DNA from: Macrocystis pyrifera
Taxonomy: Eukaryota; Sar; Phaeophyceae; Laminariales; Laminariaceae
Direction of reading: 5' to 3'
Assembly (NCBI GenBank): GCA_031763025.1
Contig: JASSKH010000011.1
Location: 248,001 to 312,000 of the forward strand
DNA length: 64,000 bases
Each line of letters opens with the position of its first letter. The stretch's first letter is position 1. The position numbers and the translations under genes were made by a program. A model generated the notes under the pieces. The model did not search any database and had not been told where the DNA came from. It saw nothing but the letters and a program-made list of their open reading frames with translations. Positions 45,587 through 63,995 of this stretch are shown here, one piece after another.

Positions 45587-48500
45587 TGAGAGAGGAAAAC
45601 CAAGGCAAGAAGCGCAAACGATCAGCCGCGGCACCAGCGGCCACACCCCGCAAGACCTGCTCCGAAACGGATGAAAGCGGGCAAGGCTAGCGGTTGTGAC
45701 AGGCGCAAGCGACCGTCGCGGGCAAAGGAAACGGCGACAGGGCCACGTCGAGAGACGCCCAAGGTCGCTGTCAAGGGCGCCGACAGCGCGAGAGAGAAGG
45801 AGCGGGCGAAGGGAAAGGCGAAAGGGCTAAATGGACAAACGCCCAAGATCGCTGTAAAGGACGCCAATAGTGCCAGAGAGAGGGAGCGCCAGAGGAAGAG
45901 GACCGGTGCTAGGCGGCGAGAAGAACCCCGTGCGGCCACCCGGCAGAGGGCCCCGGACGATTACCACAAGGTTTGCTCACGATACCAATGCTCTTCACCG
46001 TCGGGTGGGTATGCTTACTTGTTGCTGCTGTTGTTCCTGTCTTCTTGAGAGGCCAGATGGCAGCCTTATGGCAACCTTATGGCAGGCTTGGTTGACCACA
46101 GTTTCCAAAGGGACAGGTTCACTCTCGAGATGTTGTATGATGTACATCTTGCGGACAGAGTCGGGACGCTTCGCGATCGCTTAAAGGTATTATGCAGTTG
46201 TTTTGGTTCAACCGACCGAGTAGCCAACGAGGCAACTGTACATCGGTCGAATCTCATGGCCCAGGTATGTTCAGCCACCAAACCAACCCGTCTGACAACA
46301 TTTCTGCGCTTCCAAAAAGTACCCAATCAAGCAATCGTCTTTATCCCTTTCTGGTCGATCGATCGGTAGAGAGACGCTGAAGGTGTGTGGACACAGCAAA
46401 AAGCTTGATTGGTACTCACCAATAACCAACCGGAAACTGATATTCGGAGCGATATTTTTCTTTCCGGTACCTGGAAAATTAATGTTTTTGTATCCGATAT
46501 TTCCCATATGGTGAAATTGATTTCGATGGGAGAGTTGCGAGTGCTGAGAAAACCATGGTCATCGTCTCCCTGGTGCCACCCATGGCGATGGCTTCATCGG
46601 CAGTTACACGGGGTATTGAACACCTTGGGTGGAGCGGTATGATTGGTCAATGATACGTTGCGGCGAAAATCCCCCCGTATCCAACGCCTTCGCTTTCGAT
46701 GAATCTCTCTTTTGGTCCAACACAGGCAGCGAAAACTGTCTTGTCAGTGCGAATGAGCAAAGGCAACAAAGGACACGCACCAAACGTGGCGGCTTCCAAG
46801 CACTCGCGTCGCCGGAAAGAGTTGTTTAAATCTCCGGGATCGCGAGATCGGAAGGCGTTCAAGCTGAGCAAGGTGATTCCGTCGGCTGACTTGCTTGCAA
46901 TGGGGTATGGGGGAGGTGTACTCATTATCATGCATGGCCGTAGTCGTATGACCATAGACCCTCGCATCCATACAATGCCGGGACGGAGCACGTCGGGTTT
47001 TCACCGCCCGTGCAGACATTGCTTGTACCAAGCGCGAAGCGCCGTAAAGTGTTGGGCGAGTCGCATGAAGGGTGAGCTGCATCCTACCAAGATTTTCTTG
47101 CATGTGGATGGCAGCATCCATGAATTGATTTAATATCTGGTGTGGCCACTTCCAGAGACAGCAATAGGTTTACTATGTAACTACCTCGTGGGTGCCTCAC
47201 CATATACACACTAAGTGACACGATCATCCCCCTTGTGCGGTGTATGGGTTCTCCCCGCGCAAAAATGATCTAACTTGACCGCCAGCCGTGGTAACCGCCA
47301 AAAAAAAAAAAAAGGGCGGGGGGGGGGGGGGCGTATTCGGCGCCCCACGGTTAGAGCTTCCATTTGCGAAAGTTTAGGGACTGATTCGTATCGAGAAGGG
47401 CTGTCTATCTGCAGTAAGTCATGGCGTCATGGTGTATTTTGCACGTTTGCGGTACTGACCGGTGTGTACCGTAACCCTCCCCGCACAAAAAATGATCTAA
47501 CTTGACCACTAGGCGTGGTAACCGCCCCCCCCAAAAAAGGGGGGGGAGGGGGGTGTACTCGATAGGAGAGATGTACTCGATCTCATGCATGGCCGTAGTC
47601 GTATGACCATAGACCCTCGCATCCCTACATTGCCGGGACGGAGCGTGTCGGGTTTTCACCGACCAGGCAGACATTGCTTGCACCAAGCGCGAAGCGCCGT
47701 GAGGTGTCCGGCGAGTCGCATGAAGGGTGAGCTGCATCCTACTAAGAACCGCCTGTGAGGTAGACTTGCATATGTATGACAGCTTCAATGAGTTTGTTTA
47801 ATTTCCGGTGTAGCCACTTCCAGAGACAGCAATGGGAGTACTATGTAACTGCCTCTTGGGTGCCTTACCTTGAACACTACGTGATACGATCAATTCCCTT
47901 GTGCAGAATAAAGGTTCTTTACTTCGCACAAATGATCTAACTAGACGACCAGTCGTGGGCGATCGCCAAAAAAAAAAAAAAAAAAAAAAAAAACCCCTGG
48001 ATGTCTAGCTCACGTTGTGAGCGGCATGTTTTACAGTGTCGTTGCCAACCGACGCCAACCCAACCCATATATAATATACCAGGTATATAATAGGGGGGGG
48101 GGGGGGGGGTATTCGGCGCGCCCCGGTTAGAGCTTCCATTTGTGAAAGTTTAGAGACTGATTCGTGTCGAGAAGGGCTATCGATCTGCAGTACGTCTTGG
48201 CGTCATGGTGTATTTTGCGCGTTTGCGGTACTGACCGGTGTGTACCGTAACCCTAAGCCGCCACCCTCCTAGCGCGTAGCTGCAATAAGATACGAAACTG
48301 ATCTCGTTCAGACGGCGGCACTCAAACGGCATGCTTTTCGTGCCGGAGCACCACCCCTCACCTTCTGTAAGCTCTCTCATACGAGAAGTTAGGGAATGCA
48401 GTATGACCATGTTTTCATGGCACCGGAGTTGACCTCCTGGCGGTTAGTTGAGGGCACGCAGCACTCCCTTGAGGTTAATGTGACCATACTCGCAGACGCT

Positions 48501-49648: not shown

Positions 49649-49768
49649 TCGCTGCTGCCGTTGGGAGTGTGGCCTTCGAATGAGCGAGAGGAGTTCGATC
49701 TGCCCCCGGAGTGGAAGGCCAACACGCTCAAACGTTACGAGCACCCGCCGTCGTACAGAAAACTGAAG
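49649..49768 (+). CDS. SET gene exon: pre-AWS segment
   Basis: Forty codons between acceptor CCTAG and donor AAG|GTCAGT. The peptide ends in PPSYRKLK, like the P-x-Y-x-x-(I/L)-K segment found just before the AWS domain in NSD/SET2-type proteins. Phase 0 at both ends, and it joins cleanly to the next exon. Confidence 0.75.
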
Positions 49769-52700
49769 GTCAGTCTGATGCCATCTTTTGTCGAAAAGTG
49801 ACGTTGTCCTTCTGCGTTGAGTTGAGAGTTGCCAATCGTACCGTAGTCGTAGGTGCGGTATTGGTAGTCGTGGCCGCTGCATTTTCTTATATGCCATTAG
49901 TTTGTGCGTGTCCGACCCGACTTTTAGTTTCGTGGGGGAAATCAATATTCGAGGCATGTCAATTTCCAGCATCCCACGCAGAATGCGCAAAGTGAAACCT
50001 GGCTAGCTTACGAGGTGTCGTTTCGTGTCGTTTCCAACCCGTGAACAAAGAGTGCAGTACTGCCACGTCATCCGCTGTATCCACCGGGCAATGCTGGACC
50101 ATGTATGCTTGGTGTATCGCGAGAGAGCCTTGAGTCGTCGTGAGCGGCTTGTCTTGTCTCGTGATTTCGGTCTTGGTATTGATGTTGGTGTTGGTTGTTT
50201 TGTTGTTGATTTTTATGTTGAACGCCCGAGTCGAGCCTCTCGTTGCTTTCTTTGAGCCGTAGTCTATGAAGAGCGAGCACGACACCCAAGACCCACGGCT
50301 CTGCCTGGTTTCCGCCGATCACTTGAATGCAGTGTGACCATGGTGTTGATTCAACCGCGTTCCCCCCTGGCTTTACTCCCTTGGTTTTGCAGGCCAACCG
50401 CTATGCGGATAGCTCTTTGAGGGGCCTCGTGCCAATAGACGAGATCCCGCTGTGCCACTGCGATGTGGACTATGGATGCGACGCGGACTGCATCAAGTGA
50501 GATCACGCCACTTTTGGCGTTTGCCGTCGTACGTACAGAAGACATGTGACCGTTGGACATACTGAAGATACATGACCGTTGGACGTACTGAAGATACATG
50601 ACCGTTGGACGTACTGAAGATGCATGACCGTTGGACGTACTGAAAATACGTGGCCGATGTACAGACTATATGTACGTAGCCGTTTTACGGGGGGAAGATA
50701 CATGGCCGCTATGTGTACTGAAGATACGTGGCCGTTGTATGTACGATCTTGCGACACATAACCGTTGTACGTGCGGAATCTGACGTGACCGTTGTATCTA
50801 TGTACTTGAGGTACATGACCGTTGGACGTGCTGAAGATAAATGGTCGTTGTACGTACTTAAAATGCATGACTGTTGTACGTCCGAAATGTGGCCGTTGTA
50901 CGTAATCGAGATACGTGGCCGTTGTACGTAATCGAGATACGTGGCCGTTGTACGTACGGAATATACTTGGCAGTTGTACGTACTGAAGACACGTGACCAT
51001 TGTGCTTGCTTGGACTACACGACCGTAGTACATAGGAACTTGAGATACATAGTCATTGCACATGCGGGAGATACGTGACCGTTTCACGGACCGAAAATAC
51101 ATGCCTGTGGCGGATCCCCTGTCAGAGTCAGAGTTGGGGTTAGGGTGCCGTCAGTGGTGGGCTCCAGCGTCCATTGAGAGGGACAGACGATTGTGTGAGA
51201 TACATAGACAGATCATTTGTACGTTGCGGCAGCGTAGTCTGCCGGAGGGATCTCCCTGTGAGGCAGTAGATGCTTAGCGAAGCCAATCGCATGATAAATG
51301 CCGAGAGGTTAGTGTCTCTGCTGGCAAGCGCTTGGACCAAACGAGCTGTTGCCTTTTCCCTCTCTACGAGTCGGACATGTTGCTGGCCGCCGCTGTCCGG
51401 TCTATTCGCGCCAGGTTTGACCGATGTCAGATGTTTTCGAAGTGTCCTCTTCGCGTTCAACGTGGCTTGCTTGCGCTCTACCCTCGCGTGATGTTATCTC
51501 AACTTGGCCGTGCAGTCGCCAGCTCCTTATGGAGTGCGCGCCCGGACGCTGCCCGACGCTGCAGGGGAACGCCAAGCACTGCCTGAACAACGCGATTCAG
51601 ACCAGATCGTTTCCGTCAACAGAGGTGAGGCAGCTCAAGGGGGTACAGTAGACCTTTCAGTCTGTCTTACCTCGCTTCTTAGGCTAGCCCATTCATCTTC
51701 GGAGTGCTGTTGCACCGTACCGCTCGAGGCATTTCCACGTATCGCTGTCGTTCGATTGGATCATCTGACCGAACGAGAGGAAGTGAGAGAGGGGGGCAGA
51801 ATTGTTTCCATCATTTTTTTTTTTGCCAATTTGGGCATGGGTGCGGAAAGCGTCTCTTTCCCCTGTTGGTGCACGGCGGCATCAAGCGTCTAGCCCGTCG
51901 GATTCGGTGACCCCTCCCCTGGTCATGTTGAGGTGGAACACTCGAGTTTATTTGAGGTCGCTACCTTTGCCTGTAACGAGTTCAAGTAACGAGTGTTGGT
52001 CTTGCTCGAAACCGCTACTCTGCTGAAGACATGATATCGTGCTACGCTCATGATGTAGAGCACCCGCGACTTTAGACCTCATCTGACATTGTCGGTGTTG
52101 GTCCAGTTGTTGCTCGTTTTACCAGTATTGGGTGCCGTGGAGAGGATGCGTCTATTGGGTTAGGGTTAGGGTTGGCGTAGGTGTCAAAAACATATATTTT
52201 TGAGCCACACAAAGGGCCTCGTGCAGCCCTATAAACCAGTACCAGGTATTAGTTCAGCGTTTTTCTTGACGCCACGGGCGACCCAAGATGGAACGAAACA
52301 TGATGGCTCGTTGCACGACCTAACCTTTTGGCTTAAAGTTGCTGTGCACTGCGGGCGGGGTTAGCTAAAGTGCCCGGGATACACTGTTGTACAGGGACAC
52401 ACTCTAGCGGTAGCGCTTTGCGGGTAAAACAAGACTTGGTGGCTGTGGCGCAGTGCTGTAAGTATGTTCGTAGGGACTACTCGTGGAGATGATGCGTATT
52501 GCGGGAAGAGGAACACTAGTGGCCTTGACTCGGTGCTGTGGATTTGGTCGTGAGCAGCTTTTTTCCCGATCACGGCAGCTCGGCTGTCGCATCGCTGTAG
52601 CAGCAAGTGCCTTTCGGAGCTCATCAACTGTGTTATATTGTCGCCAGGATTGTCAGTGCGAATGTTGTTCTGGCCCAGTGGGGTGCTGCCGTTCAAACAT

Positions 52701-55700
52701 GTCCAGCGCTCGTACGTTATTTGACGGTCGGATTTATTCGTGTGCAAACTGTTATTTTTTATTCGTTTGCAAATTACTGTCCGTTTAGTACGAGTCGGGA
52801 TGCCGACGCAGCCTAAAATTTGTATGGGTTTGGGTTGGCGTCGAAGTAGCCCACCTTACAGGCATGGAATAGACGCGCATGTTGTTTTAGTCAAGCATAA
52901 TGCCAGCCGCGGACGTAAGCTCAACTTTAAGAAGTTTTTCAGCCGATTGCCCTCAATAAAAACACCATCATATCCCAATACAACAAGCAGCTCCCCGGGA
53001 ACTGTTCCACGGTCAACATGTTTGGTTTCGAGGCAGACGACTGCAGATGTTCTACTTCTCGGTCGTGACTTATGTTATATGCGGACATCCAACGCTTCGC
53101 CGCTTGGTTTTATTCGACGTGGACAGATTTTCCGCACAGTCGAAGGCAGAGGATGGGGTCTTCGGCTGTCGGACGAGAAGGGGGCGAAGGCGGGGACGCT
53201 GCTCCACGAGTACCTTGGGCAGGTGAGGCCATTAACGCCAGTGTGGCAGCAACAAGGTTGCGGCAGTGGTGTGCTGATGTGCCGCGACGCGGGTATCGTT
53301 TTATTGCAGCGGAAGGGAGCGGTGGCCTCGTCTCGTCTCAGGCAGTAGCGCCCATTTATTCGGGTCATATGAGACTACGACTAACTAGACCATTGGTGCT
53401 GAAGCGCATCAGGGACGGTGTGAGGTAGCGGAAGAGACCCACTTGCCGTGTTCGTGATAACAGTACAGCGGATTGTTTGGTTGTCCTTGAGTTGTGCTGC
53501 AGAGGAACTGGTTGAAAGCGCTCGAAGCTGGACCACGAAAAGCAGAAGCAGTCGTTTGCATGTATACATTCGTGTTGGTAGTCTCGCTTGACGGCTGTGG
53601 AAGCAATACCAGCGTCATTGCGCGGAGTTCGTCTTCGTCGCTGGTTCAATCCTATCCGCCGTAGCCGCAGACCATGGTACCTACTGTAGCGTACCAGGCG
53701 GTGGCCAGCACCGGTTGGAGTTTGGAGTAGTGGGTTGGCTTTCGCATATCGACCCTCGTTCCCCGGCACAGGTGATCGGGATGGACGAGTGCCGCAAACG
53801 GCTGCGGAAGGTGGGACGCAAAGGGGTCGAGGGCTCCAGCAGCGACTTTTACTTCGCTTCTTTGGACGGGAATCTCGTCCTCGACGCCGGTGAGGCATGC
53901 CGCTTGCTATGGTAGTTGTGGGTGGGTGTGGTGCTATGGTTGGTGGCAGTGGGCGTGGTGCTATGGTTGACGTGAGTGGGTGTGGTGCTATGGTTGGTGG
54001 CAGTGGGCGTGGTGCAATGGTTGACGTGAATGGGTGTGGTGCTATGGTTGGCGACAGTGGGCGTGGTGCTATGGTTGATGTGAGTGGGTGTGGTGCTATG
54101 GTTGGTGACAGTGGGCGTGGTGCTATGGTTTGATGTGAGTGGGTGTGGTGCTATGGTTGGTGACAGTGGGCGTGGGGGTTTTGCTTGGTTTTTCTGCGAT
54201 GGTAGCTTCGAAACCTAACATGCATGTCCAATCACTCAGTGCCCAGTGTTTTCCCTTCCCGCCTGCCCGCGGCTCTGGTACGCAGGCCCTATGGGCAGTG
54301 AAGCTCGTTTCGCGAACCACAGCTGCGCACCCAACTGCATTCTACAGAAGTGGAGCGTGCTGGGCGAGACTCGGGTCGTCCTCGTCGCTGCGAAAGACAT
54401 TTCTTATGCCGAGGTGGGATAAACGACGAGCTATTTGTAGGCGAAGGTCGGGTCCATGGTCGGTTTCCGTGTGCGCATGTACCCGTAAAGCGCTTTGGTT
54501 TGTGGAGAGGTGCGATCGTTTCTTGGCGCTAGGTTTGTCGACAGCGGGTTGTGGTTAGGGTGCCAAGCTGGATATTGCACTCTCGGGCAGCTCTCGAGCG
54601 GATATTTTTGGGAAGGGACAAGTGGCCTCGTCTCGTCTAAGGCAGCTGCCATTTTTGAATTCTGTCATATTGGGGCGAGAGCATTGGTGATGGACGCACC
54701 AGGGACGGTGTCGGTCGGGTGGCGTGTCGGGTGGCGGAAGAGACATACTTGCCGTGTTCGTGATAGCAGTACAGCGAATAAATTGCATGCCGTTGAGTTG
54801 TGATGCAAAGGCGCTGGCTGAAAACGCTTGAAGGTGGACCATGACAAGCAGAACGAAAAAATTGTACTTGTAGTAGCCTCGCTTGAAGGCTTTTTTATTG
54901 GTCGTAATGCTCGGCGTCGACTGGGGCTATCATGCTACCATCCGCGCGCGCCGCAGCAGACGATGGTAAACGGGCTTTGTGACTGACCCCGTCTTCGACT
55001 GTCCGTCCAACGCAGGAGCTCACGTACAACTACCAGGCGGACACCTTGGAGGGTTTCGTAGAGAGGCAAAGGTGCCTGTGCGGGGAGCCGCAGTGCTCAG
55101 GCTTCATCGGGGGCGAGGTGAGACCGGTGCAAATCCTGTCCTTTGGCGTGCGGTTGCGAACCCTATATGTTGCTGAGAGGCAGCTTAAGGTCGGGATATG
55201 TCAGCTGCAGTAAATAGCCGTGTTACCTTCCACGTCTCTGAGTGGAATTGATTCAGCCCAACACGGCGTTGTGCCGGTGCGGAGAACGCAGTCTTGAAGA
55301 CATTTCTATCTCGCAGTAAGTGCGGTTGGAAACAAATACGTGCGCCTTTCTCATTTCGGAAGACTCTGCCTATACTAGACCCTCAAGGCTAAATGTACAT
55401 CGAGCCCATACAACAAACATACAGTATGCTGGCATGATGCGCTCTGAACAGAACAGCCGAGTGTGGTACCGCAGGCTGCCCTCTTTTCTCACCGATTGAA
55501 GGTATTTTACGGCTATTGGTTGGACATACTCCCTAGATATTTTTAGCAGCAGAGACTGACCACGTGCCCAGCCCCTGGAAGTGTAAAGCTGGGCTAGAGT
55601 GGGTCATCTCGGAGAACTCAAGGCTTGAGAAGGGCTGTTCGGACTGGCGGCAGCTTTTTGTTGATTTTTTTGGCCGAGACCGAGGCGATCTCTCCGTCGG

Positions 55701-57247
55701 AGAGCAGCACATTCCCCGTTTTTTTTCTCTTGTAAATCGGAATTGGTGGTGGTTGATCATTATCATTGCCACATTCCAGCCCTTGTCGACCATGTATTGG
55801 CTCGTCGCGTGTCAACAGTACCAGTAGCCTTGCGCAGTGAAGGCTAATCGACGGCTACTGCACGGGTGGTACAACTGACTGCGGATGTCCCTGTGGGTCG
55901 GCAGTGCCCAATCATACATCTTTGTGGGGATATTATTGGGGAGACGGCTCTGGGGGTAAGGTAGACGCTTTTTTTCTCGCATTCTGGCATTGTTGCCGGC
56001 GATCTTCCTTATCAAGGATCGATCTCGTAGGTGCTGAATTGCTTCCTTGCGGCCGTACGGAGGAGGGTACGTCGACGCGCAAGGGATGGGCAAGGCGCAA
56101 CGAGCCGTACCGACCCGGCTTTCTTCCTCGTTTGGCTTCCATCCGCTCGCTGCGTTGCTGTGTTCTTACACAATCGATTGGGTTTCCCATCACTGATGTG
56201 TCACTCCCTTCGCCAAGGCACTCACTGCCTGTTGTTGAAAACCCTCATATTTGTATCCTATTCCTGTACAATGTTAGCTGGTGGCGGTGAAGGCAGACGA
56301 GTGGCGGCGGCGAACGTCGAAGGTGATGGGCCAGGCAAAGCCACAGCTGAGGCTCGTCAGGGAATTGTTCAACGAAGGCCGGGATCTGGGTTTCGAAGAA
56401 CCAGGTGATTTGGAGATAGACTACCGTTTTAGGTTTTGGACGACTTCTATATACTGTTTTTTTTTACCTTACGTGTTTGTTTATTGTCTTTCCCCCGCTT
56501 GTAGTGCAGGAGTGGGTAGTGTCCGCAGCCGATCACGCAGTCCGTGGCGGGGTCGTGCGAATAAGCTCTGAATGCAATACTGGAAACGGCGCTCGACCAC
56601 GTCAATAGGTTTAAGTGGGCCAACACCCAGCCTGTGCTCGACGCCTCTCTGTGCGTTCGTTTGGGTATAGTCGAATGGTTGATTTTGAGTCATTTTTTCC
56701 TGTCTTTTTTCTGGCCTGGTTTCGCTACAACGCGCCACCTTCACCTTCTCCGTCCAATTCACAGGGCCATCTTGTCGGATCGAACTTTGGGGACACGTGA
56801 CCCCCGCTTGATCAAATGGATCAAATAGACGCACAGCAAAATGGCGAGCCCCCTCATTTTGAACCCTATCCCCTCCCCAGGTGAAGACGGAAACGTTTGC
56901 TACCGGGGACGCGAGATGGAGTGCCTCTCCACGATGCTCAAGGAGGGCGATGATTGGCTAGCGCAGCTCGCAGAAGTGCTTGAAGGGACCCCAGCCAAAC
57001 CCACCACCGATCCCTCACTCCCACCTTCATCACAAATACTAGACTCGAAAGTGCCTGCCGCGGATGCTTGCGGCGCGGATGAGGTCACCGGCAGGCGAGG
57101 TGGAGGTACCTGCGACGTGGCTGATGGCCGACGGACCAGGTCGAGAGCGCATTCTGCGGTCGATGGGAATGGAAGCAGAAGTGCCGAGTGTGAGGCTTCC
57201 GCCGGCGCCGGTAGCAGCAGCACGAGGTCAAGCAAACGCGGCAATAT

Positions 57248-57284
<37 letters not shown>

Positions 57285-60200
57285 AGCAACGGGAACCGGC
57301 CCGAGATGATCGGAAAGGTGAAGAGCGTTGACACTGCTGTCGTCAGGAAATCGTGCCAGCCGGAGGTCAAACGTGAAAGTGGAGCACCGAACGGAGGTGG
57401 GAAATCACCTCCCGCCGCTGCGCGGGGCGGTGCCGCGGCTTCGTTAGGACGCGGGAAGAGAGCGACAGGGTGTTGTGCTTCTGAGCGCAAGAACCAGCGT
57501 GGCGAGGGCGGCGATCGGCTTTTTCCTCGACAACAAGGGGCAACGCTTGCTCCGGTGAGTGGCACGCACTCGAGGGTTTCGCGGCGAAGCTCTCGTGGCG
57601 AATTACTGGTATTGTGTTGACCGTTTTGGGACCCAGGTATGGCGACCTAAAACCAACAAGTGTCGTATATCTTACGAAGCAGCTATCACTAGGGAGACCA
57701 ACTAGGGAGAGGGTGCAGCAGTACGAGTTAAGTGGTACCTGGTACTAGCATCAATATTCGACTCAACACGACAGTCACTACGGTACTATGGTCCATACTG
57801 TCCATACTGTAATCAAGTCCCAAGGCGGTGAAGGTGTCGGTCTCTTTTATAGGTGGTAGGTGTTCTCCTGTGCTATCATACGCTAGATTTTGGGTCGTTT
57901 ACCTTCGTTTGGTTGGGTTTTGTTTGCCCTAGTATGAAGGCGCAATGTGGTTGCCTTGGCCAGGCGCTCCATTTAGAGAGCAAAGCATGCACACATTGGA
58001 CAGATCAGATTATCTGCTCTACTTCTTTCGGGGTAGATTATGATGCCTATGATCTGCAAGATCTACATTGTGTTTTCCGGTTGGGATCTGCTTGGCATGG
58101 CTCTCTCTTGCGCACGTGTTTGGCGGGGTACGATCTGCATGATCTGCATGATACAGATCTTGCGCTCTTGCACAACCTCTCATAACGGAATATATACATA
58201 GTGTAGTATACCGGTAGATCTCGTACCCGGTATGTTGGCTTCACTTGCTTTGCCCTTGAATTGGCGATTTTTTTTTTTTTTTGTTTTTCTGTCTCAACAG
58301 TCAGTGACCACATGGTTATTACCAGGTATCATCTAGGATGAGGAATCAGGACGGACACCGGGTGCACTGATGTAGCTGGGTAATTGTGAAGACAACACAC
58401 ACGCGTTGTCACTGCGGCCGCCCTAAGTACTGTGACGCACAGCAGATTTGTCGATTTCCACTGATGCAGAGTAAATGAGAAGGGGAAGATGCCTATAAAC
58501 GCACGATTTTGCCTGTTTCCCGTCATGCAGAGAAACACGAGGGGGAAGATACATTGAACGTACTTTCTGTCGAAGGCCCTTCGTGCAGCGTAAAACTAAG
58601 CTGCATTTATCATACAGGTTTTGTCGAGTTTCCTTCGTACACAAAGGGGGGGAAGATGCATCCAACATGTAGTTTTGTCGAATTCCCTTCATGCAGGGCG
58701 AAGAAAAGGGTGGACAGGCATTGAACGCTCAGTTTTGTCGCGTTTCTTTCGCGCAGATCGAAGGAGGGGGGGGAGAGAAGACAGATGAGCCGGCTCCGTG
58801 CGCGGTGGACCTGATGAGGCTCGAGCGGGTACTCGAGAGGGCGCCACCTGGGCTGCAGATGGTCGAAGCCACCAAGGCCAAAAAAAAACGGCGACGAGGT
58901 AAATTTGTTGCTTTTTTTTACGAGCGAATGCTAGTTTCTGTTTTTGACGCGCCACAAAAATAGAGACCCCTTTGAATTTTGTCCACGCCGGCCTTAACGC
59001 TCCCAAAAGGCAAAAGCCTATTTGTGGATTTTTCCCAAATATCGTTCTGAGAATTTTCTACCATCGTACACAAGTTGACGACACTCACAAACGCCTGGCT
59101 GAGCGAGTTCCTACATAGCGACAGCTTATTGATAATGTTGTATCCTCAGGCGGATGGGTGAGAATACCTGGTGCAGTTTATTCTCACCACACGTCCACGT
59201 AGGAAATTCATGTCGTGGTTTAACTGTGTTTCAGTATATATCGTTGTTGAAGCATTGCACTATTGGTATTAATATTATCAGTACACAACGGTGCTATCGT
59301 GGAAACGTTATTCTGATGGTATCGTTGGATAGCTGGCTTGGCCTCGGACGCGTAGGAGTATCGACTCGTGCAGAGCGCAGCAGAAGCGCGTCGGTGTGTG
59401 TGCTGCCTAAGGCGGGATTCAAGAACCGAAACAAGAGTCCAACCGGATTGCCTCCCGCTCTGTGACATCGGAGGGAATGGCGTTTCTGGGACAAGGACGC
59501 TCGTCGCGAGTGCGTTGGCGGCGAGATTGCCGCTCCCCCTCTTCTTACCCTTGCTTCCGGGGGACACATGCTCATACACTATAGCTGGCTGCAGTTTTTG
59601 TTGTAGCTTTGAGCCCTAGGTTTCTAGCTACTTGTAGATGGCAGTGACGCTTGTATGATACCACAACGGTTTTCGCCGTACGCCAACGACGCCACAAGTC
59701 ACCAGGCGACGGCCAGCGCGTACCATCTGTGGCATACCAGGCACATACGGTATTAAAATAGACGGCTGACATTGTTAGTTCATCTTCGCCCCGCTAGCTT
59801 AGCGACCTACTACTGGATCGTGAGCTCTCTTTACGGCAGGCTATTCGTCGCGACAACTTCGTCGTTGCCCACGTCTCCAACCCTCGCCGCCCAAAACATT
59901 CTCGACACCGTATCTCTACGATATTTAATTTTGCCGTTCCTTGATTCATTTCCCTTGTGTGTGCATCACAGGGCCGCCCACGTGGCGAGAACGGTGTGGG
60001 CCCTATTGGATGCGGCGTCTAGGTATGGTCTGGACGTCCTCGTCCCCGAGCAGCGACCACTGCTCTTCCAGTCCGTCAAAGCTGCGGCGACGAATCGTAC
60101 GGCCGGGCATTCCCCCCACCCAGACGCGAGGGGCAAAGCGCGGGCGTCGGAGGCGGGTAGGAAAGGAAGAGGAGGTGCCATCGCAGTCGGCGCTGCTGTA

Positions 60201-63200
60201 CCGGCGAGGCGGAAGGGTGGAGCTGGTGGAGATGGGGAGGAGAGAGCCGGGGCCGGGCAGGAGGTTGACGACTCGGACGGGGCAAGGAGGAGCGGTAAGG
60301 CTGGCGAAAAGGGCGTCGAAAACGAGGGTGATGGCATGGACTTGTGTGCAGAGGGAGTCACCAGAGGCCAACTTGGTCATGGTCATGGTGGTGCTGCAGG
60401 TGACGGTGACGGTTATGCTGGAATGGAGTCGAGAAGAGGCGTGGGCGACGATGGCGCGGATGTGGTCTCTGCGGAGGCGCATTCGGAAGCCCGAAGCGAA
60501 CTGCACGACGAGCCGACGCGTGGTAGTGCTGGCGCAGCTGGTAGCTTTGAGAATGGAGATACGTCGATGGGCGATACCGGGTCGTCATGGACAGAGAATG
60601 GGGCAACCACACGCGTGGCGCCTTGTCCGGAAGTTGTCGCGGTTGCGGTCACCACTCGAAGCGGAGGGAAGAAGCACACGTCGGCGTTGGTCGCCGAAGA
60701 GGAACAACAGATTGCGCCGCCGCCACCGCTAGTTGCCGGGGAGGGTGGAGAATGTTCAGCCCTACCGCCCAAGCCCAAAATGTCGCAGGTGATCTACTGC
60801 GGTATTCTGCCTGTTGGCACCCTCTTCGCACGCTTTAAACCCCATCGTGCAGGGGCTATCTGTAGACACGAGCTTGTGGTGAGAGGAGATTTCACAGGCC
60901 CGACGCTATTATACTGTGTTTGATATTTCTGAGGGTTAGGGTGAGGGTTTACAGAATAGTGGTGGTACTGAAAACGCGAGCTACGATAGGGATTAGGTGT
61001 GACACTTTTTGGCCGAAATTGTACTCGTTCCGTCCGACGGAGGTCCTCAACTACAGTAAGGAAGTACCCCTAACTCTAACCCTAAGTAAGGTATGTCATT
61101 TGTCGTTTGTGCAGATGTTACAGAGTAACATTCTTCTGGAGTCTACTGATAGCCCATGCGAGTGTTCATCGAGTTGAGTCCACACGTCTTCTGAAATGTT
61201 GGGTGCTACGGCAGATGTTGAGGTATTGAAGCATGGAGCTGTTCAAGTAAGGAGGCTCAGAAAATGTTACTACTGATACTTCTATAGGTCCGATGTACAG
61301 TGTATGCAGAATGCTGTTGTTGTTGTTGTTGTTCTCACATTAACTCTGCTATCAAGGAGTCCGTGGTCACCCAAAGCTTTAAGGTGCTGGAACCCTAGGA
61401 AGATCCGAAAAACCATTTAAAAAAAAACAAAATTCGTCTGGGAAGCACGACGCTTACCACCTGAACATACACGAGACGAAGAATGCGCACACAAAAAGAA
61501 ATCAAGGTGCAAACTGAACTGACATGGCCGCGGGTATCCACTCAACAGCATTGTGCTCCCCCCCGTTCCCACAACTGACCAACTCGCGGCGACTGACTAC
61601 AGCGATTGCTGTCTAGAGTGCTGCCTGCACCGTACGAAATCCACGGTAGTCGTGAACACAGAGAGGAACACGCCTGCTGTCTGAGGTGCTGTCAGAGTGA
61701 CGGCTCGTCAACATGCAGTTAAAAAAGAGCGATCGCGCCAAAAACCACCATACTATTAATAGTATCAACGATCGCCATGTCTTCCCGGGCTGTCTGACAC
61801 AAACGCAAAAGATGCAGCACAGCTATGATACTACGTCCCTGACATTTGCGGGGGTCATTCCCCATGAAGGGTATACAACTCGCCAACTCTACAAGGACCA
61901 AGAAACAACAGGTACATACTGCTGCTCGCGTGATGGTGTGCGCGCTGGTGGTGGGTCTCCGTGTGCCGTCCTGCTGCCGTTCTCCATGGCCGCCTCATCG
62001 CCTTAGACTAATCGACCCGCTCCTTCGCCCGTGCTCTCGTTGCCACTCCCTTCCAGTCGGTTCCCCTTCTCCCCCGTCCCGAAAACAACATGGTCCTCGC
62101 ATGTGCGGTTCTGATCTGAAAAACTAAATTTCTCGCCCAGGGTGAGTTCAATCCGTCTCTTTCCCGCTCGTCGACGCTCTGTCTCCCTCCTCATCCAGCC
62201 TCCTGCCGGCGCAGTTAGACTGTGCAGTAGATTGGCCTGTGGTGGCGTCTACCTCCGCGCACGGACATTCCGATAGAGCATTGCTGCTCTGCCACTGCTG
62301 CCTAAAAAAAGGCTCGCGAATCGTAGGTTTATGTGCCTGACGCACCACGTACGACCCAACTCTACTGCCACGAGTATGCCTCGCGGCCACACGCAGCACC
62401 AAGAAGATATCACTCGATGAGGGTGAATCCAGCCTTACCCTTACACCCGCCAGAAAGACCTACCGCACTCGCTCTAAGCCTGATAGGACATGCCTCGCAG
62501 CATGCCCCGCCGAGGCAGCGAGGTGAACGGAGGCATGTGTACACATTGCTGACCTGTAAAGTCCTAGTCCTTCTACACGCTCGCGTCTGCAAACAGCTCG
62601 CAGCCCCATCGGCTAATACGTGTTCCGAATTTTTGCTGTGGGTGCATTGCAAGGATAGCGACACATGCATACCATGGTACCTGGTAGTGCTTTCCAGGTA
62701 CATGTTATATCAGGTATTATACACAGTTTTCGGTGGGGCCCCGGATATCAAAATTGAATAACCTTCAAGATATATACTACCGCCGCGAGAGGATGCAGCC
62801 GCTGGGCGTGGTTCTGTCGTACGGATAGTTAACGCTTAGTGCTAGCTTTGTGGCAGGTAACGGCAAGACCATGTTGTGTTGGCCATTAGGCCTGATCCCG
62901 GAGCGCGTGATTGACCACCTGTGATAGCGTCTAGAAGCCTGAGGTTGCTGGTTGTACCGTCGTACGTGAGTTCGAGTCAAGACAGGGGTGCTCTCGTTGA
63001 AGGATATCGATCGAGACACTGTAGCAGTGCTACCGTGTGAACCCAAAGTATTCTGCTGTGACAGGTTCTGCTCGAATTGTGGTTTGCGACACGGGCGGCG
63101 TTCGTTGTTTGGTGTGGTGCGCAGGTTTACCAGGCGATTCGAAGCTGCAGAGGTCTCGCTCCCGTCTTTATCCCGGGAGCTTCCGAGCTGGACAAGCTCG

Positions 63201-63995
63201 TGGCTTCTGCCGAGGCTTGGGCGTCGAAGGCGTGCGAGGTCTTGAAGATCAAGGTAAGCAGCTTCTCTAGTGCTCTGCGGCCTGCGCGGGGGCCACTTAC
63301 GTGTTGACGCCAGAGTAACGTTTGACCGTTCGCGCGGGCTGTATAAGAGGGGTGTATTTTCTCCACGTGGTGTTTCTCTTGCATGGGAGTTTCGGCCTGG
63401 TTTTTGCCGCTGCACCGCTGTTGTGACTGGTACGTACCCTTCTTCCAATCATAAAAGAGCTAGAGGCCGCACGCATTAACGTGTCACTTTTGCAGTTTCG
63501 TCAAGTAAATACCGCATGATTTGGCAATGGGTTGACCTTCAAAGCCGACTGCACATGGTACGAGAGTGCTTGTTTTGTGTCGGCGGCAGTTATGTAGCAT
63601 CTGCAGGTCACGAACTCTTACCATTTGAGCCACGGCTGAACACACTTGCAGTAGCCAAATCCCGATTCTTAGTTCTGTTTTTTCCCGGTAGGTTGTCTTA
63701 CGGGCTCCCCGTCATAGCTCACCACGTATATATATATGCACGTCTTGTGCTGTCGATATGCTTTGTTTCTGTTCCATCTGAACAACAGTTCCTACGGAGA
63801 ACTCCAAAGTTTGCCTCGTTCAAAACGTTGCATACGCCCGGCCTCACCATACCACCGAGTTGTCATATTTCGGAACGACACAGGACCCCCCCCCCTCGCC
63901 CCCAAGGCTACCGCTGCAATCCACGTCAGAAAAGGAGCTCTTATCGCGGTGGTCTTCGCCGAGATCGCGAGGAACTTCGGTCAGCGTGCGCCTTG
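49649..63995 (+). CDS. AWS-SET-post-SET histone lysine methyltransferase with PLU-1-like helical region (multi-exon, 3' end outside window)
   Basis: Likely a nuclear histone lysine methyltransferase using S-adenosylmethionine. Exons: 49649-49768, 50393-50496, 51283-51307, 51565-51624, 53127-53222, 53772-53889, 54286-54413, 55016-55117, 56278-56404, 56566-56664, 56881-57554, 58757-58898, 59972-60788, 63125-63253, 63930-63995; about 936 visible residues, counted from 49649. Cys at about 61, 63, 69, 73, 81 and 89 form an AWS pattern. The SET domain follows: GRGWGL (110-115), HEYLGQ (130-135), DFYF (160-163), [11 protein letters not shown] (182-192), ELTYNY (218-223); then post-[11 protein letters not shown] (237-244). 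From about 252 on, Leu-rich helical segments resemble the PLU-1-like region of KDM5/JARID1. AWS plus SET plus post-SET is typical of SET2/NSD/ASH1 (H3K36) enzymes; the substrate is inferred. Splice phases agree at every junction except 58898/59972, where a small exon or another splice site is probably missed. All key SET residues appear intact. The true start is upstream or unknown. Confidence 0.88.
50393..50496 (+). CDS. SET gene exon: AWS domain, first Cys cluster
   Basis: Acceptor TTTTGCAG, donor ATCAA|GTGAGA. It encodes [16 protein letters not shown] when joined to the next exon, the C-x-C-x5-C-x3-C-x-N pattern of an AWS (associated with SET) zinc-binding domain. It ends in phase 2; the Asn codon after the last Cys is split by the intron. 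Confidence 0.85.
50525..51110 (+). repeat. intronic ~30-40-bp minisatellite
   Basis: About 17-18 degenerate copies of CGTACTGAAGATACATGACC followed by GTTG(G/T)A, in the intron between the first AWS exon and the 25-nt microexon. Unit length varies because of small insertions. Long minus-strand frames here are repeat-derived. Confidence 0.8.
51283..51307 (+). CDS. SET gene 25-nt microexon (AWS Cys)
   Basis: Only 25 nt long. With the 2-nt carry-over from the previous exon it reads N-QSHDKCRE and ends in phase 0 before GTTAGT. This supplies the Cys expected after the C-x-N motif of AWS domains and restores the frame for the next exon. A nearby acceptor (TTAG at 51273-51276) would give another reading that breaks the frame, so this one is preferred. 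Confidence 0.6.
51565..51624 (+). CDS. SET gene exon: AWS domain end
   Basis: Twenty codons from acceptor GCTGCAG to donor GAG|GTGAGG. The peptide [20 protein letters not shown] matches the C-x-N-x-x-(I/F)-Q-x-R stretch that closes AWS domains and leads into SET. Phase 0 at both ends. Confidence 0.8.
53127..53222 (+). CDS. SET gene exon: SET domain N-terminal part
   Basis: Thirty-two codons after acceptor GGACAG; donor CAG|GTGAGG. It begins [14 protein letters not shown] and ends [12 protein letters not shown]. The G-x-G-W-G-L motif (SAM binding) and the E-Y-x-G motif are both in place, as in canonical SET domains. Phase 0 at both ends. Confidence 0.92.
53772..53889 (+). CDS. SET gene exon: SET domain middle
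   Basis: Acceptor GGCACAG, donor GCCG|GTGAGG. It encodes MDECRKRL (residues 139-146), a charged loop, then [16 protein letters not shown], the usual D-F-Y-x-x-x-L-D-x-x-x-x-x-D-A-G segment. It ends in phase 1, the last Gly codon being split. A 27-bp minisatellite starts about 34 bp past the donor. Confidence 0.92.
53924..54178 (+). repeat. 27-bp minisatellite in SET intron
   Basis: About nine copies of a 27-bp unit starting GGGTGTGGTGCTATGGTTG, alternating in two types (GGCAGT and GTGAGT endings) to give a 54-bp higher-order unit. It starts about 34 bp after the splice donor at 53890. The length is a multiple of three, so it is open as a Gly/Met/Val-rich peptide, but it is intronic by phase. 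Confidence 0.85.
54286..54413 (+). CDS. SET gene exon: NHSC catalytic motif
   Basis: Acceptor ACGCAG, donor GAG|GTGGGA. The 2-nt carry-in rebuilds Gly and the sequence continues [17 protein letters not shown], the R-F-x-N-H-S-C-x-P-N-C core that forms the SAM pocket in SET enzymes, then a strand-rich stretch ending AAKDISYAE. Phase 0 at the end. Confidence 0.93.
55016..55117 (+). CDS. SET gene exon: SET C-terminus and post-SET
   Basis: Thirty-four codons from acceptor CGCAG to donor [20 protein letters not shown] holds the conserved catalytic Tyr region; [15 protein letters not shown] is a complete C-x-C-x4-C post-SET zinc motif. Phase 0 at both ends. Confidence 0.93.
56278..56404 (+). CDS. 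SET gene exon: PLU-1-like segment 1
   Basis: Begins after acceptor ATGTTAG and ends CCAG|GTGATT in phase 1. Peptide motifs [13 protein letters not shown] and [19 protein letters not shown] are amphipathic, with the L-x-x-L-(L/F)-x-E-G-x-x-L pattern of PLU-1-like repeats. It follows the post-SET exon in phase. Confidence 0.7.
56566..56664 (+). CDS. SET gene exon: PLU-1-like segment 2
   Basis: Ninety-nine nt with phase 1 at both ends; acceptor AATAAG is weak, donor TTGG|GTATAG. It encodes [16 protein letters not shown] (Ala codon split) and ends SLCVRLG. The frame upstream of the acceptor is closed by stops, so the exon edge is well bounded. The helical pattern fits the neighbouring segments. 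Confidence 0.6.
56881..57554 (+). CDS. SET gene exon: PLU-1-like segment 3 and low-complexity linker
   Basis: Acceptor CCCCAG, donor CTCCG|GTGAGT (consensus). It starts in phase with the previous exon: [16 protein letters not shown], then a helical stretch ending [10 protein letters not shown]. About 190 residues of linker follow, rich in Ser, Gly, Arg and Pro, with a run of 12 Gly encoded by a GGC repeat near 57250-57282. The linker has several basic patches and is probably disordered. Confidence 0.75.
58440..58756 (+). repeat. ~80-bp intronic repeat carrying acceptor-like sequence
   Basis: Four to five degenerate copies of TTTTGTCGA(A/G)TTCCCTTC(A/G)TGCAG followed by GGGGGAAGATGCAT and AACG. 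The last copy ends CGCGCAG, which is the acceptor used for the exon at 58757. Confidence 0.7.
58757..58898 (+). CDS. SET gene exon: PLU-1-like segment 4
   Basis: Acceptor CGCGCAG, donor ACGAG|GTAAAT, phase 0 in and phase 1 out. It encodes an acidic Gly-rich start, [18 protein letters not shown] (helical, Leu-rich) and a basic tail KAKKKRRR that could act as a nuclear localisation signal. The acceptor lies in the last copy of an intronic ~80-bp repeat. Confidence 0.7.
59972..60788 (+). CDS. SET gene exon: PLU-1-like segment 5 and long charged linker
   Basis: Acceptor CATCACAG, donor TCGCAG|GTGATC. It begins [19 protein letters not shown], a PLU-1-like helix, then about 220 residues rich in Gly, Ala, Glu, Asp, Ser and Arg, with Pro-rich stretches near the end. 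The entry phase (2) does not match the exit phase (1) of the exon at 58757-58898, so a short exon or another splice site lies between them. Confidence 0.68.
63125..63253 (+). CDS. SET gene exon: PLU-1-like segment 6
   Basis: Forty-three codons, acceptor TGCGCAG, donor AAG|GTAAGC, phase 0 at both ends and matching the exon before. [18 protein letters not shown] has the L-x-x-L-x-x-x-A-x-x-W-x-x-x-A pattern typical of PLU-1-like repeats. The 2.3-kb intron before it is the longest in the gene. Confidence 0.78.
63930..63995 (+). CDS. SET gene exon at window edge
   Basis: Twenty-two codons between ACGTCAG and CCTTG|GTAAT, phase 0 at both ends. It reads [13 protein letters not shown], a likely helical piece continuing the repeat region. 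Two other frames are also open here, so the call rests on phase agreement. Confidence 0.5.

Follow-up and report, generated by a model that had tools for sequence, protein, structure and literature searches.

A predicted brown algal gene that may join an NSD/ASH1-type SET methyltransferase to a KDM5-like PLU-1/PHD tail

The locus and its catalytic module

We analyzed a 64,000-nucleotide stretch of the 537 Mb genome of the brown alga Macrocystis pyrifera (C191:248001-312000, the window below), in which a histone methyltransferase gene is predicted on the plus strand. Positions are relative to the window unless another contig is named, and exons were called from the DNA of one genome assembly. 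With moderate confidence, we read the locus as one large plus-strand gene that begins upstream of 49.6 kb and extends 14 kb or more beyond the end of the window; it would encode an NSD/ASH1-type methyltransferase with a KDM5-like PLU-1/PHD tail. Its AWS-SET-post-SET module at 49649-55117 is spread over seven GT-AG exons in consistent phase, which were placed by eye and by script:

49649..49768, + strand: exon, pre-AWS segment (..PPSYRKLK), partial alignment to NSD1 immediately ahead of AWS
50393..50496, + strand: exon, first half of AWS (Pfam AWS over the spliced module)
51516..51624, + strand: exon, second half of AWS (Pfam AWS)
53127..53222, + strand: exon, N-terminal part of SET with GRGWGL and HEYLGQ (Pfam SET, NSD1 alignment)
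53772..53889, + strand: exon, middle of SET with DFYFASLD (Pfam SET, NSD1 alignment)
54286..54413, + strand: exon, catalytic part of SET (Pfam SET, NSD1 alignment, genome-wide SET match C191:302285-302404)
55016..55117, + strand: exon, end of SET with ELTYNY, and post-SET (Pfam SET, NSD1 alignment)

In the spliced protein, Pfam SET (PF00856) scored 60.3 bits (2.8e-16, profile positions 10-105 of 105, cut-off 22.4) and Pfam AWS (PF17907) 32.2 bits (1.1e-7, cut-off 23.3). The post-SET cysteine cluster is present (CLCGEPQC) and could be aligned to NSD1 CKCGAPNCSGFLG. Catalytic motifs of SET are intact in the spliced product, as are the zinc-binding motifs. A sequence-only reading of this DNA had proposed a complete AWS-SET-post-SET module, and the two Pfam scores, the post-SET cluster and the seven in-phase exons bear this out.

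Among the best 60 of 113 distinct solved sequences, the relatives of the module are NSD1 (1e-51), NSD3 (5e-47), NSD2 (1.5e-46), ASH1L (1e-44) and SETD2 (8e-34). By its sequence the catalytic part certainly belongs with the NSD/ASH1-class histone lysine methyltransferases, and its target, judged from the best relatives only, would most likely be H3K36. Nothing closely similar to the module is encoded elsewhere in the genome; the matches outside this contig lie on C131 (42% identity) and C219 (39%), and no relatives were found in the collections of viral contigs and genome contigs that were searched. Because exon 49649..49768 lacks an ATG, the gene start should lie upstream of 49649. A Pfam scan of the three plus-strand frames of 39.7-49.6 kb gave no match.

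Frame-by-frame scans, with stops read as X, are too blunt for short exons. Overall they returned a SET piece above its cut-off and two PHD pieces below theirs, the SET piece being the only match in 49-64 kb. They contained no PLU-1, AWS, bromodomain or BAH match, although split exons can escape such scans, and AWS, which is split over two exons, was missed in this way. The unspliced genome-wide search for AWS, without a match anywhere, is uninformative for the same reason.

Several repeats accompany these exons. A 54-base minisatellite at 53905-54175 in a SET intron (5.0 copies, 94% matches) is open in one frame, and a 26/52-base tandem array lies at 50523-51003 within the AWS intron. Upstream of the gene (46907-47747 and 47318-48254) are three direct-repeat families of two copies each (113-186 bases, 82-93% identical, spacing 655-776 bases), possibly remnants of mobile elements.

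The predicted tail and its PHD fingers

Downstream of the module the following features were assigned, in part by a simple gene finder of our own and in part by hidden Markov models (HMMs) of PLU-1 repeats described below:

56278..56404, + strand: exon, first PLU-1-like helices, weak; follows the post-SET exon in phase 0 and has an in-frame stop immediately before it; Pfam PLU-1 below cut-off at 10.8 bits
56881..57554, + strand: exon, second PLU-1-like helix with Trp, then a long low-complexity linker; phase 1 after 56278..56404; repeat HMM
58697..58898, + strand: possible bridging exon, low confidence; gene finder only
59972..60788, + strand: exon, weak PLU-1-like helices at its start, then a low-complexity linker; gene finder, repeat HMM 4.1-6.0 bits
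63125..63253, + strand: exon, PLU-1-like repeat; repeat HMM 7.2-12.4 bits
L006:2281-2548 + L006:6225-6333: first PHD finger (PHD1); Pfam PHD 8e-7
L006:7202-7313 + L006:7867-7968: PLU-1-like repeat after PHD1, at about 71 kb; repeat HMM
L007:2773-3028 + L007:3787-3996 (76.8-78.0 kb): second PHD finger (PHD2); Pfam PHD 2e-9

The sequence-only reading had placed the gene at 49.6-64 kb. Exons are predicted across that interval, but the gene model continues beyond the window by 14 kb or more, reaching 78.0 kb at the least; this part adds two PHD fingers with one more PLU-1-like repeat between them, and no clear end appeared in the next 40 kb scanned by the gene finder. From 59972 to PHD2 and beyond, the agreement in phase is built into the gene finder, and some of the small exons are uncertain; the junction that links PHD1 with the repeat after it was verified by hand. 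The order downstream of SET is PLU-1-like repeats, PHD1, another PLU-1-like repeat and PHD2, with a PHD finger after PLU-1 as in KDM5-type proteins.

PHD2 is nearest to the solved finger of CFP1 (1.6e-14) and then to Spp1, followed among the best 60 of 69 matches by KDM5B (2.7e-5), KDM5A (1.4e-4) and ASH1L (4.9e-4). The tyrosine of YCIC and the tryptophan of EWFH/EWYH are common to PHD2 and its solved matches in the CFP1 alignment. CFP1-type PHD fingers read H3K4me3, and PHD2 may do so as well. The nearest solved matches of PHD1 are PHF2 (1.3e-8) and PHF8. PHD1 has the tryptophan in common with PHF2 and lacks its first tyrosine, and would therefore be expected to read something else or nothing.

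PLU-1-like character of the helical segments

A PLU-1 gene on another contig, C196:5020119-5028079 (L011 from 7119, L012 to 5079), has Pfam PLU-1 matches in four stretches (6.4e-53) together with two PHD stretches, and provided the reference for the helical segments studied here. Two HMMs were built from 11 and 9 of its repeats and scored against 2000 shuffles and 3463 background open reading frames (ORFs) from 129 kb. Four of the five segments tested pass, since no more than 8 of 2000 shuffles and no more than 1 of 3463 background ORFs attain their scores. With the 11-repeat model, the score was reached by no shuffle for the post-PHD1, 63 kb and 56 kb segments, by 5 for the 60 kb segment and by 1434 for a segment at 74 kb; the corresponding numbers of background ORFs were 0, 0, 0, 1 and 1315. 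With the 9-repeat model, shuffles reached the scores of the same segments in 2, 0, 7, 8 and 645 cases, and background ORFs reached only that of the 74 kb segment (509). This last segment, which had looked PLU-1-like by eye, failed both tests.

Aligned with hhalign, the repeat alignments of the two loci matched with a probability of 52% (P 1.5e-4). In a separate run of 15 overlapping segments, 0-5 of 2000 shuffles came up to the score in eight cases. Of the 2800 ORFs in 104 kb, the one at 63 kb has the highest rank under the 11-sequence model; under the 9-sequence model it comes third, after two ORFs that lie outside the gene model. The 56 kb segment, taken as its two exons together (56278..56404 and 56881..57554), reaches 5.1-6.4 bits. 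Within the window, repeat signal is found in three places, at 56.3-57.0, 60.0-60.1 and 63.1-63.3 kb, only the last of them clear. The two clear segments of the gene as a whole are those at 63 kb and after PHD1, and the segment spliced to SET is weak. The sequence-only reading had counted at least six PLU-1-like segments in phase within the window, which is too strong. Of its picture of a writer enzyme on the scaffold of an eraser, the writer half is fully supported, AWS and SET standing above their Pfam cut-offs in the spliced translation; for the PLU-1 half, direct matching stays below the cut-off and the support comes indirectly, by way of the C196 repeat models, from four segments of which two are clear.

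A number of results weigh against calling these segments PLU-1. The best direct score of Pfam PLU-1 (PF08429) on the spliced protein, on the first segment in the window, is 10.8 bits (E 0.28), with a cut-off of 28.5, and a genome-wide PLU-1 search matched C196 only, not C191. Scores depend on the training set, the post-PHD1 repeat falling from 13.1 bits with 11 sequences to 8.3 bits with 9. In the same 104 kb, ORFs that are not part of the gene model score up to 7.2 bits with 11 sequences and up to 7.8 bits with 9; such stray ORFs outscore the 56 and 60 kb segments (4.1-6.4 bits) and, with 9 sequences, the 63 kb segment too (7.2; untrimmed ORF 5.5). Scores of C196 repeats that were not used for training run from 1.7 to 26.0, which places the C191 repeats toward the weak or divergent end. 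Because the C191 segments had been selected by eye ahead of the tests, these figures are biased in favor of the PLU-1 reading. In the run of 15, seven pieces did not score, namely the SET control and six tail pieces (e11_rest, e17, e17_C60, e18, e20 and phd2; 138-1775 of 2000 shuffles). Finally, the 49 solved matches of PHD1 do not include a KDM5 finger.

One reading of these weaknesses is that the locus holds a single fused gene whose helical segments are a generic alpha-helical linker and no PLU-1 homologues. The sub-threshold direct score and the stray ORFs that equal the weaker segments would fit this explanation, as would the lack of a structural reference, since the C196 repeat profile found nothing significant among solved structures (best E 0.058). 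On the other hand, both repeat models set four C191 segments apart from composition-matched shuffles and from almost every one of the 3463 background ORFs, and the negative control, the SET module, gives no signal (its score is reached by 293 of 2000 shuffles). We regard a generic linker as distinctly improbable and the tail as likely to be PLU-1-like. A human KDM5 tail segment found no match among solved structures, and the residue likeness to human KDM5 seen by eye is treated as a lead and was not used as evidence.

One transcript or two

The nine exons from 49649 to 57554 keep phase at all eight junctions. Because of the in-frame stop just upstream, exon 56278..56404 would have no start of its own before its PLU-1-like part unless an upstream exon is joined to it. 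Reading through the post-SET donor adds 31 codons with a coding score of -1.6 before a stop. A search of 55118-56277 for a lone first exon with an ATG and a suitable phase-0 donor found none (count 0), a weak result given that three other introns yield 1, 8 and 0. The gene finder scored the one-gene path at 410.8, compared with 397.4 when a break was forced at 55.2-56.3 kb and 400.4 when it was forced at 57.6-59.9 kb. Phase and gene-finder score thus make a single transcript through SET and tail probable.

Several points detract from this result. The gene finder was trained on twelve exons from the C191 locus itself, some of which are under test, and its score gaps depend on hand-set start and stop penalties. 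Its path contains at least one wrong exon, an error still included in the three scores above. Between 57554 and 59972 the phases can be reconciled only if a small additional exon or a different acceptor is assumed, and among nine single-exon bridges the highest coding score is 1.6. The one-gene claim of the sequence-only reading is therefore upheld in phase as far as 57554, and the gene finder prefers it, but its continuation to 59972 does not fit directly. The gene-finder exon 53916-54079, which is minisatellite, was rejected and 54286-54347, where the SET motif lies, was kept instead.

A break at 57.6-59.9 kb is a less probable reading. The locus would then hold two neighboring genes on the same strand, a compact ASH1/NSD-like methyltransferase ending at 55.2-57.6 kb and a PLU-1/PHD protein starting at about 58-60 kb. 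The C196 gene provides a precedent in the same genome, being a PLU-1/PHD protein without detected SET or JmjC. Forcing a break at 57554-59972 costs only 10.4 units, an ATG start at 58691 is possible, and the clear PLU-1-like repeats, at 63 and 71 kb, all lie beyond this junction. However, the one-gene path scores better than either break, exon 56278-56404 has no upstream ATG of its own and is in phase with the post-SET exon, and weak PLU-1-like signal occurs before the junction, on the same side as SET (56.3-57.0 kb). We consider two genes unlikely, though a serious alternative to one fused gene.

Minisatellites in introns, and a genome known from one assembly, could also suggest a decayed or chimeric locus, either a pseudogene or an assembly join. 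This is very hard to reconcile with intact catalytic and zinc-binding motifs, with phase kept at the eight junctions and with the length of the contig (14.9 Mb), and we give it hardly any credence.

KDM5 components elsewhere in the genome

Exon-level searches of the whole genome for JmjC (7 matches) and C5HC2 (1 match) found none on C191. The single C5HC2 match, from 12 candidates, lies on contig C126 in a predicted gene with a JmjC exon, JmjN at 26.5 bits (cut-off 26) and a KDM5 helical match of 16.6 bits that stays below its cut-off of 27.1; the genome-wide PLU-1 search had no match on C126. For the C196 gene, the genome-wide searches and three frames of 5006001-5020202 contained no JmjC or SET exon, although split exons can escape them. 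These results suggest that the two halves of KDM5 may be separate genes in this lineage, and the C196 gene is possibly one part of such a split KDM5.

We tentatively extend this into a scenario in which KDM5 was split, its catalytic half standing alone on C126 and its PLU-1/PHD half alone on C196, with a copy of the latter joined on C191 to an H3K36-type writer that it would steer to H3K4-methylated chromatin. It remains a doubtful proposal.

Near the PLU-1 gene on C196, predicted exons at L013:816-3476 (C196:5033816-5036476) look by eye like a DEAD-box helicase. The genome searches also returned at least 150 matches of the EsV-1-7 cysteine motif (all 150 scored of 1585 candidates); this gene family is described, in the part of the source available to us, as expanded in brown algae (PMC7457493).

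Possible mode of action and significance

In the favored single-gene model, the C-terminal half would consist of PLU-1-like repeats, a PHD finger, another PLU-1-like repeat and a CFP1/Spp1-like PHD finger. The PLU-1 repeats might serve as a rigid spacer or a docking scaffold, PHD2 as a reader that holds the enzyme on H3K4-methylated chromatin, and SET would methylate H3K36 nearby. Such an action would resemble that of ASH1L, whose PHD finger also binds methylated H3K4.

If this is true, the gene would be a candidate link of H3K4me3 to H3K36 methylation in a chromatin without DNA methylation or PRC2, both of which brown algae have lost according to the available text of a recent chromatin study (PMC13076208). 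It would also mean that KDM5's PLU-1/PHD half can move between proteins as a module, without being tied to demethylation, and it would offer a second context for testing what the PLU-1 repeat does. The available text of the same study describes two brown algal-specific SET families (PMC13076208); KDM5, ASH1, NSD and PLU-1 are absent from its main text as far as available. In Ectocarpus, the ASH1/WHSC1 candidates Esi0016_0129 and Esi0000_0259 appear in a published list whose accessible part does not give their architecture (PMC3145265), and many methyltransferases are reported to show novel domain structures, which makes functional tests necessary to identify their targets (PMC7784034). We found no description of SET and PLU-1 in one protein in the literature searched, most of it outside subscription journals, although databases may already contain one. 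SET with PLU-1/PHD seems to be a new domain combination within known kinds of protein rather than a new kind of system.

Comparison with known systems

ASH1L (Ash1, KMT2H) has an AWS-SET-post-SET module of the same class (1e-44) and carries a bromodomain and a BAH domain behind SET. The C191 gene instead has PLU-1-like repeats and two PHD fingers in that position, and no bromodomain or BAH match was found in the plus-strand frames of 49-84 kb, although split exons could escape and only some of the predicted exons were scanned in spliced form. The NSD proteins NSD1, NSD2 and NSD3 are the best-scoring catalytic relatives (NSD1 1e-51). They have PWWP domains and PHD fingers around SET and are not known to carry PLU-1; PWWP was not found in the frames of 39.7-84 kb, which split exons could again escape. 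The PHD finger of ASH1L is reported, in the accessible part of the source, to bind H3K4 methyl peptides (PMC9399681).

With KDM5/JARID1 the C191 gene shares the C-terminal order of PLU-1 followed by PHD. Its predicted catalysis, by SET, is opposite to demethylation, and the JmjN-JmjC-C5HC2 cassette was not found on C191: the genome-wide searches gave no JmjC or C5HC2 exon there, and the scanned frames yielded neither JmjN nor ARID. The C196 gene is similar in having PLU-1 repeats and two PHD fingers, and its last PHD finger is the nearest match to the C-terminal query, and the best match of PHD2, outside C191 (1.3e-7). It differs in lacking a detected SET or JmjC, and its PLU-1 repeats are more numerous and clearer. 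A writer and an eraser in one stramenopile protein are known from Phaeodactylum tricornutum, for which the available text of the source gives SET with JmjC (PMC3145265). The diatom protein includes the catalytic domain of the eraser, whereas the C191 gene would contribute only the non-catalytic PLU-1/PHD part to its predicted writer.

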